The notes beneath the pieces are model-generated. The model was not told where the DNA came from, made no database searches, and saw only the letters and a list, made by a program, of their open reading frames with translations. From Nanobdellati archaeon (lineage in GTDB: Archaea; EX4484-52; GLR71), in the NCBI GenBank assembly GCA_019429005.1, contig JAHYJR010000001.1:70663-134662 (forward strand): a stretch of 64,000 nt of DNA, read 5' to 3'. A program made the translations under genes and the position numbers. Shown one piece after another: positions 33,913 through 36,351 of the stretch. Within the stretch, counting starts at the first letter, position 1. Each line of letters opens with the position of its first letter.

Positions 33913-35279
33913 AAATCTGCCATTTTAAGTATTGTTACTTTTCTACTTGATGTGCTTTTTTCAACATCCATACCTAAAAGATATTTTGTTTCCACATTTT
34001 CTGCAAGAACACAAATCTCATCATTAACAGTACCATCTATAAGAACTGCGAAGGGTTCTTCAACTTGTTTTAATGCAACACTTAATCCTTTTAATGGTAC
34101 ACGTCCAGCAAAAACCTTATTTTTACCAAAAATGCTTATAGCTTTAGAACCAACTAAATCTTCAAGCTGTTTTTTGAAAAATATTTTCATATCATTATCC
34201 AAATCACTTTTTTGAGATGTTGGTGTAAATGATGTTCTTGGCTGGCTTTTCTTATGGTCTAAAGATGAAACAGGGGTTTTTGTTAAATAAGTGTTTTTTG
34301 TTACTTTAACAGTCGTCTTATATTGTTTATTCACTGGTTCAGTCGTCTTATATTGTTTATTCACTGGTTCAGTCGTCTTATATTGTTTATTCACTGGTTC
34401 AGTACGATTATTATACTCTTTTTTCTTCTCATAAGATGACGCCTCATAACTTTTCAAAGATCTTATATCTCTCGCTTTATCTAATGTTACTTTTTCTCGT
34501 AAAGCTTTATGAATTTCTTTACAACTAAGTTCTTCAACTTCTTTACCTTCAGGTGCTCTTGCGATAAAATCAACTTCAGCAATCTGCTTTAATTCTTTAA
34601 TAATTATATCGCCACCACGATCCCCATCAAGAAATGCTGTAACTTCTTTTTCTTTTGAAATCTGTGTTATCTGTGGTGCAATTGCAGTACCGCCAATAGC
34701 AATACCATTACGTATACCACATTTCAAAAGTTTAAGTACGTCTGCACGACCTTCACAAAGAATTACTGATTCTGAAAGTGCAACATCTGGACCTGCTGGA
34801 AGTGTTTTATATTTTGTTATTTCTTGTGACCTTACACTTTCCTTAAGATCTTCACTGATTACCATTATTTCTGGTATATCTGATATAATATTTGCTAATA
34901 TAGCTCTTGCACGTTTTACAATATAATCTCTTTTCAAATATCTCATATCTTTTACAGAATCAATCCTCATTTTAGCATCACAAGGACCTATTCGTTCTAT
35001 AGTCTCAATTGTTGCTGCTATTAAAGCAGTTTCTGCACTATCTAAACTTGAAGGAATATCAATATCACCTTTTGATTTTGCTTTTAAAGAGATTATATTG
35101 ACTTCAATCCTTCCAATTCTTCCAGTCCTTTGAAGTTCCCTTAAATCGAGTTCTGCCCCTAAAAGACCTTCTGTCTGACCAAATAATGCACCGATAACAT
35201 CCGGTTTTTCTACAATACCTTCAGCCTCGAATTTAACATTTATAACATATTTTACTGATGTTTGAGCTAATTTTCCCAT
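33906..35279 (-). CDS. dnaG: Archaeal DnaG primase/exosome subunit
   Basis: A 457-residue archaeal DnaG, a Toprim protein found in the RNA exosome and reported to have primase activity. The N-terminal archaeal signature (GALFGQTEGLLGAELDLREL) is followed by Toprim residues in VILCEGRADVLKL (about 173-185) and FLDGDRGGD (216-224). A Lys/Thr/Gln-rich linker (about 280-375) carries three exact 10-residue copies of TEPVNKQYKT (293-322) from a 30-bp tandem repeat at 34314-34403. The conserved C-terminal domain follows (KAISIFGKNKVFAGRVP). GGTGA 7 nt before the ATG sets the start. Confidence 0.95.
   Translation of the reverse strand: MGKLAQTSVKYVINVKFEAEGIVEKPDVIGALFGQTEGLLGAELDLRELQRTGRIGRIEVNIISLKAKSKGDIDIPSSLDSAETALIAATIETIERIGPCDAKMRIDSVKDMRYLKRDYIVKRARAILANIISDIPEIMVISEDLKESVRSQEITKYKTLPAGPDVALSESVILCEGRADVLKLLKCGIRNGIAIGGTAIAPQITQISKEKEVTAFLDGDRGGDIIIKELKQIAEVDFIARAPEGKEVEELSCKEIHKALREKVTLDKARDIRSLKSYEASSYEKKKEYNNRTEPVNKQYKTTEPVNKQYKTTEPVNKQYKTTVKVTKNTYLTKTPVSSLDHKKSQPRTSFTPTSQKSDLDNDMKIFFKKQLEDLVGSKAISIFGKNKVFAGRVPLKGLSVALKQVEEPFAVLIDGTVNDEICVLAENVETKYLLGMDVEKSTSSRKVTILKMADLQ
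34314..34403 (-). repeat. 30-bp tandem repeat inside dnaG (3 copies)
   Basis: Three nearly identical 30-bp units encode TEPVNKQYKT three times in the linker between the Toprim and C-terminal domains; the reading frame is preserved. Confidence 0.9.
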
Positions 35280-35501: not shown

Positions 35502-35771
35502 TTATTGATAAACTTGCTTAAATGCAAATTTAACTTCTTCTAAAGTTGAATTATCTATTTTAATTTTTTTTTTCTTGCTTTTATAACCTGATATTATTTT
35601 AACAGGTTTTTTTAATATTTTGCTGAATTGCTTAATTATTTCTTTATTTACTTTATTTTTTTCTGGAATTTCTGTCACAAATACCTTAAATATATCATTT
35701 TCAAATTGTATTATAAATTTATTGCTATAAAGCTTAATATTTATTTCGATAATACAGCTTTTATTTAACAT
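35502..35771 (-). CDS. DUF167 (YggU-like) protein
   Basis: An 89-residue DUF167 protein, recognised from the sequence FSKILKKPVKIISGYKSKKKKI followed by a short helix. The family is widespread but its role is unknown. The gene lies about 24 nt downstream of the H/ACA RNA on the same strand, so the RNA could also be viewed as its leader. Confidence 0.72.
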   Translation of the reverse strand: MLNKSCIIEINIKLYSNKFIIQFENDIFKVFVTEIPEKNKVNKEIIKQFSKILKKPVKIISGYKSKKKKIKIDNSTLEEVKFAFKQVYQ

Positions 35772-35794
35772 AATAAATCATTTATTAATAAAAA

Positions 35795-35914
35795 TGTAGC
35801 CCACTTGTAACACAAGATATCATCATATCAATCTTGCTGACGAAAGCGGGCTTATAATGTATTAGGATGTCCTTATAATCATTGAAATTCTCAAAAAGGG
35901 ACCCATTAATACTA
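35795..35914 (-). ncRNA. H/ACA guide RNA (candidate, predicted target 23S helix 69)
   Basis: Minus-strand RNA of about 120 nt. Hairpin 1 (35912-35859) is closed by GUAUUA/UAAUAC. Hairpin 2 (35852-35798) has the archaeal H/ACA form: a 9-bp lower stem AGCCCGCUU/AAGUGGGCU, a pocket (UCGUCAG on the 5' side, UGUUAC on the 3' side), an upper stem CAAGAU/AUCUUG, an apical loop with UGAU and UGAUGA kink-type elements, then ACA at 35797-35795. The pocket lies 15 nt from ACA, the usual distance. Read antiparallel, the pocket pairs with GUAAC-U-N-UGACG, which matches the conserved helix 69 loop of archaeal 23S rRNA, so the target would be the U equivalent to E. coli 1915. A TATA box lies about 26 nt upstream of hairpin 1 and a short U-run follows ACA. 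Confidence 0.78.
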
Positions 35915-35935: not shown

Positions 35936-35947
35936 TTTATAAATATT
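35936..35947 (-). promoter_or_regulatory. TATA box of the H/ACA RNA gene
   Basis: On the minus strand AATATTTATAAA is centred about 26 nt upstream of the first base of hairpin 1, placing the start of transcription near 35914. Confidence 0.55.
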
Positions 35948-36027: not shown

Positions 36028-36351
36028 ATGTATAAGAAAGGATATGCTTTTGAAAGGCTATTAAAACTTGAGCTTGAAGCTGACGGCTGGAAAGTTATAA
36101 GATCTGGCGGAAGTAAAAAACCAGATATGATTGCTGGAAAGAATGGTAAAATCATAATTATAGAATGTAAATCATCAAAAAATAGTAAAGTTTACATAGA
36201 TAAGGATGAATTTGATAATATACAAGTCGTTGCGAAAGCTTTCAATGCTGAATGCATATTTGCAATAAGACAAGATAGAAAAAAATGGGTTATGGTATCT
36301 TTAGACCAATTAAAAGAAAATGATAAGAGTTATGTGATTAATCTTGAATAG
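36028..36351 (+). CDS. hjc: Holliday junction resolvase Hjc
   Basis: A 107-residue archaeal resolvase that cuts four-way DNA junctions. The nuclease residues are all visible: Glu9 in FERLL, Asp33 in KKPDMIA and the Glu46-x-Lys48 pair in IIECKSS, together with the RSGGSKKPD stretch typical of Hjc. The following hydrolase gene begins with GTG immediately after its stop. Confidence 0.94.
   Translation: MYKKGYAFERLLKLELEADGWKVIRSGGSKKPDMIAGKNGKIIIIECKSSKNSKVYIDKDEFDNIQVVAKAFNAECIFAIRQDRKKWVMVSLDQLKENDKSYVINLE

Follow-up and report, generated by a model that had tools for sequence, protein, structure and literature searches.

A putative two-hairpin H/ACA guide RNA in a small archaeal genome, with predicted targets in helix 69 and the A-loop of 23S rRNA

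Results

Positions 35795–35914 of the window (the whole 64,000-nt stretch of DNA that was analysed, from an archaeal assembly of 1.08 Mb in 15 contigs, with the genome 93.6% complete) are read here, with high confidence, as the gene for a box H/ACA sRNA that has two hairpins and a transcript of its own. Its predicted targets are U1915 (E. coli numbering) in helix 69 and U2555 in the A-loop of 23S rRNA. Helix 69 is the decoding-bridge loop, and the A-loop holds the incoming tRNA end. The two guides would very probably direct the pseudouridine enzyme to both sites. Each hairpin has a lower stem, a two-sided pocket and an upper stem, and the two arms of each pocket can pair with rRNA on either side of an unpaired U-N. 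In both, the distance from the pocket to the ANA box falls within the 14–16 nt of H/ACA RNAs (14–15 nt for the ACA of hairpin 1, 15 nt for the AUA of hairpin 2).

Genomic setting

The guide RNA gene lies on the minus strand (the first-pass annotation of this DNA had named no strand), with presumed transcript ends at 35914 and 35795. A TATA box, TTTATAAA (35936–35943, minus strand), precedes the proposed transcript start by about 25 nt and the first stem by 31 nt, and a run of five T (35790–35794, minus strand), which is a possible terminator, follows the ACA box. These are the TATA box and U-run that had been taken to suggest a separate transcript. In the window and in the relatives the TATA box stands 31–32 nt from the first stem, and this conserved spacing strengthens that suggestion; transcription itself we infer.

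The divergent neighbour is hjc (36028–36351, opposite in orientation to the guide RNA gene; Pfam Hjc). A divergent hjc adjoins the guide RNA gene in several families of the order examined, and the named relatives that carry it are metagenome assemblies of DPANN archaea, under the labels Nanohaloarchaea or Aenigmatarchaeota. This adjacency would suit a reading of the conserved block as the upstream region or leader of hjc, and a 14-codon ATG frame inside hairpin 2 in the window would suit a short coding sequence. However, the TATA box of the guide RNA is directed away from hjc, HgcG relatives occur elsewhere, and the helix covariation described below refutes both forms of the idea. The short frame is moreover rejected because indels between relatives break it. 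We consider these readings vanishingly improbable, and the block is treated in what follows as a guide RNA gene.

On the same strand as the guide RNA, an ORF of the DUF167/YggU family (35502–35771, minus) begins 24 bp past the ACA box, and read-through into it from the RNA promoter is possible. Elsewhere in the window, a dnaG-like (Toprim) gene contains a 30-bp unit in three perfect tandem copies (34310–34403), so that TEPVNKQYKT is repeated in a linker of the protein.

Hairpin 1 and helix 69

Hairpin 1, the 3′ unit (35795–35852, minus strand, as are all hairpin elements below), contains every part that the first-pass annotation had described: a 9-bp lower stem, a two-sided pocket, an upper stem with a kink-type loop, and an ACA box. 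The lower stem is formed by AGCCCGCUU (35844–35852) and AAGUGGGCU (35798–35806) and includes one G.U pair. The 5′ guide is CGUCA (35838–35842), which pairs with UGACG, and the 3′ guide is GUUAC (35807–35811), which pairs with GUAAC. Between them, the upper stem and kink-loop (35812–35837) comprise the pairing GCAAGAU/AUCUUGU and the motif UUGA..UGAUGA, a presumed L7Ae site. The ACA box (35795–35797) follows directly after the stem. The pocket had been placed 15 nt from ACA; measured from the upper stem the distance is 14 nt, or 15 nt if the closing G.U is taken as open. Of 200 dinucleotide shuffles, 199 fold less well than this sequence (z = −3.3, and −3.8 when the hairpin is trimmed).

The pocket had been matched to GUAAC-U-N-UGACG, given as the helix 69 sequence of archaea, and the 23S gene of the genome itself was found to contain exactly GTAAC-T-A-TGACG. 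Alignment of the two arms with GUAAC-U-A-UGACG gives 5 + 5 Watson-Crick pairs and no mismatch, and the uridine left between them is position 1971 of this 23S rRNA, corresponding as claimed to E. coli 1915. When all uridines of the organism's own 16S and 23S rRNA were scanned, helix 69 was the sole site with 10/10 pairs, the runner-up having 8/10. An equally good target was found by 2 of 400 shuffled guides.

A DNA search located hairpin 1 in the same family and in one other family. A covariance model extended this to 22 of 151 genomes; the matches in four genomes of family f12 correspond to the 3′ hairpin (hairpin III) of the Rfam RNA HgcG/Pab40. Antisense matches of the model were removed with a stricter E-value. 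The resulting alignment has 25 distinct sequences and 15 pairs. The stems of relatives change in a compensatory manner, with 97.7% of cells paired and two-sided changes at 13 of the 15 pairs. The covariation score is 0.756, against 0.208 for shuffled alignments and at most 0.20 with the partners slid. The box varies between ACA and AUA in hairpin 1, as it does in hairpin 2.

The guide also changes together with its target. It is CGUCA opposite UGACG here, GGUCA opposite UGACC in genome G114, and GGUUA opposite UAACC in the genomes that carry HgcG. Exchanging guide and helix 69 between groups produces mismatches in most combinations. The 3′ guide of G114, GUUAA, is mismatched to helix 69 at its outermost position. 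In the sequences compared, guide and target covary, and this is unusually clean computational evidence. The assignment of hairpin 1 as an H/ACA guide for helix 69, an ordinary case of its kind, is thus predicted from sequence and very well supported.

Hairpin 2 and the A-loop

The first-pass annotation had noted a second hairpin of unknown purpose. That description can now be replaced: the 5′ unit (35853–35912) is read as a second H/ACA guide on the basis of a covarying stem, an ANA box and pairing with the A-loop (helix 92). The lower stem consists of GUAUUA (35907–35912) and UAAUAC (35859–35864). The 5′ guide is AUGGGU (35901–35906), with complementarity extending to UUAAUGGGU (35901–35909), and the 3′ guide is ACAUCC (35865–35870), or AUACCC in relatives. 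The upper stem and kink-type loop (35871–35899) carry the motif UUGA..UGAUUA. The kink motifs of both hairpins are conserved; they were read from the sequence, and L7Ae is presumed to bind them. The box is AUA in the window (35853–35855), an ANA variant, where most relatives have ACA. It lies 15 nt past the upper stem, a feature that recurs in most members.

The block is kept in its own family and in family f6, immediately before hairpin 1. In relatives, compensatory two-sided changes occur at 7 of the 7 model pairs of the lower stem, which varies freely, whereas the guides are constant or have changed in ways that mostly keep A-loop pairing.

The A-loop of the organism's own 23S rRNA reads GGGUGU-U-C-ACCCAUUAA, and the two arms pair with it over 6 + 6 and up to 9 + 6 positions. 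With AUGGGU and ACAUCC against GGGUGU-U-C-ACCCAU the match is 12/12, rising to 15/15 with the extension. In the scan of all uridines of the organism's 16S and 23S rRNA the A-loop was the best site, the next having 10/12, and none of 400 shuffled guides matched as well. Among the members of the order that were read, nearly all have the same A-loop sequence. The 3′ guides of relatives (AUACCC, ACAUCC and ACACCG) retain at least 5 of 6 pairs to the same rRNA, and the changes in the guides, mostly transitions, exchange C-G and U.G pairs.

It could be argued that only hairpin 1 guides, that hairpin 2 serves structure or stability, and that its antisense likeness to the A-loop is coincidental. In line with this, the arms of its pocket can pair with each other (GGGU with AUCC, or with ACCC in relatives), its box is AUA in the window, and the search of relatives did not detect it in several hairpin 1-bearing families of the order. 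Folded alone, hairpin 2 is only weakly stable (z = +1.4, for a tested stretch that cut off part of the lower stem). Self-pairing is, however, what one expects of a guide directed against both sides of a single hairpin, and the apparent internal stem GGGU/AYCC has the form that such a guide must take. Coincidence also fits poorly with the 15/15 complementarity, which 0 of 400 shuffles equalled, with guide changes that are mostly transitions preserving the A-loop pairs, and with a lower stem that covaries freely around constant guides. In L109 and L110 the internal pairing is weaker, yet five pairs to the rRNA are kept. A purely structural hairpin 2 therefore seems improbable to us.

A different proposal is that hairpin 2 is box C/D-like, with UUGA and UGAUUA serving as D′ and C′ boxes and guiding 2′-O-methylation. 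A D′/C′-like kink motif does exist, and a search of Rfam at a relaxed E-value gave C/D matches alone, these being weak and at chance level (snoU18, E = 4.9). At the gathering score no Rfam family matched anywhere in the window. Set against the proposal are the absence of terminal C and D boxes, complementarity to rRNA that is interrupted by two nucleotides and situated at a distance from the D′-like box, not directly upstream of it, and a lower stem that covaries as in H/ACA RNAs. The C/D reading is very improbable, and hairpin 2 was not classed as a C/D sRNA.

As an H/ACA guide, hairpin 2 is predicted to direct pseudouridine formation at U2555 (position 2600 of this 23S rRNA), with U2554 as the alternative. 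U2555 is preferred because the standard geometry leaves two nucleotides unpaired, and the canonical unpaired pair would here be U2555-C2556. For U2554 to be the target, the 3′ guide would have to leave its first A unpaired; this A is conserved, and in all members it would be paired to U2554. On the other side, the pseudouridine of yeast 25S rRNA at 2923 is equivalent to U2554 (PMC8307265, PMC9976906), and a spacing of 14 nt from the ACA box is also permitted. U2554 is on balance an unlikely target, and U2555 is retained as the predicted one.

Both uridines are close to the tRNA: U2554 contacts C74 of the A-site tRNA, and U2555 stacks on it (PMC9976906). In the literature surveyed, the modifications described in the archaeal A-loop are methylations at 2552 and 2553 (PMC7994747, PMC2584109) and a predicted one at 2556 (PMC4644070). 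An archaeal guide for 2554 or 2555 was not found in this literature, the coverage of which did not extend to the main study mapping the A-loop. Hairpin 2 may be the first H/ACA guide to the 23S A-loop to be recognised in archaea, a claim that we hold tentatively, leaning slightly to doubt.

It is worth adding that a distant archaeal genome (G216) contains a similar-looking tandem at locus L112, about 1430–1580 on the minus strand (E = 0.03). Its first hairpin has a 9-bp stem and the arms UUGGGU and ACAACCC and ends in ACA, and is followed by a hairpin with GGUCA and GUUAG. The match to the hairpin 1 model is weak (E = 0.11); the resemblance is suggestive of the same tandem.

Machinery and proposed mechanism

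The genome encodes Cbf5 (460 bits), and Nop10 and L7Ae with scores over the cut-off. Gar1 was not detected in this 93.6% complete genome with PF04410, a model that also misses Gar1 in Sulfolobus. On the basis of the sequence comparisons above, we propose that Cbf5-Nop10 would bind each hairpin and L7Ae its kink loop, and that each pocket would capture one site of 23S rRNA. Cbf5 would then isomerise the unpaired uridine held in the pocket, U1915 of helix 69 in hairpin 1 and U2555 of the A-loop in hairpin 2. Assembly of the RNP and both modifications are predicted steps.

RNA-guided modification of helix 69 would in this way be extended to a DPANN lineage with a genome of about 1 Mb. Hairpin 2 makes the feature a double guide, and part of its interest lies in the concrete prediction of an archaeal A-loop pseudouridine together with its guide; in eukaryotes, snR10 acts on the adjacent uridine. 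If the prediction is true, small archaeal genomes retain RNA-guided modification at the two loops of the large subunit that are in contact with A-site tRNA.

Comparison with known H/ACA RNAs

A guide for helix 69 is of a known kind, represented by hairpin III of HgcG/Pab40, and hairpin 1 is an additional member. Hairpin III of HgcG/Pab40/Pf7 (RF00064) addresses the same uridine, position 2016 in P. abyssi and 1915 in E. coli, with a similar pocket and stem and with the same 3′ guide, GUUAC. The third motif of HgcG/Pab40 guides P. abyssi position 2016 (PMC4652768), and Pab40 and Afu-4 install the equivalent modification in vitro (PMC2584109). The RNA described here was nevertheless not assigned to HgcG: it scores below the Rfam gathering score, and the two are comparable at hairpin III only. 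HgcG has three hairpins and 276 nt, whereas this RNA has two hairpins; the 5′ guide of HgcG is GGUUA, for UAACC, in place of CGUCA, for UGACG; and the partner hairpin has a different target. The H/ACA hairpins HP1 and HP2 of Haloferax volcanii offer a further likeness: HP2 is, as hairpin 1 is here, a helix 69 guide (positions 1915/1917), and its partner hairpin is a guide for the peptidyl transferase centre (PMC2584109).

For hairpin 2 the nearest parallel is yeast snR10, also an H/ACA guide for the A-loop, which guides the pseudouridine at 25S 2923, beside Um2921 and Gm2922 (PMC8307265) and equivalent to E. coli 2554. Its site is one nucleotide from U2555, and it is a eukaryotic RNA with an additional role in rRNA processing; the likeness drawn here is one of function. 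In overall organisation, the gene resembles an H/ACA sRNA of Nanoarchaeum equitans (PMC3491384), likewise from a tiny DPANN-type genome, which has two hairpins, kink turns, its own promoter and a T-stretch. That RNA is 159 nt long, has an ACA between its hairpins, and its targets are, as reported, predicted only (PMC3491384).
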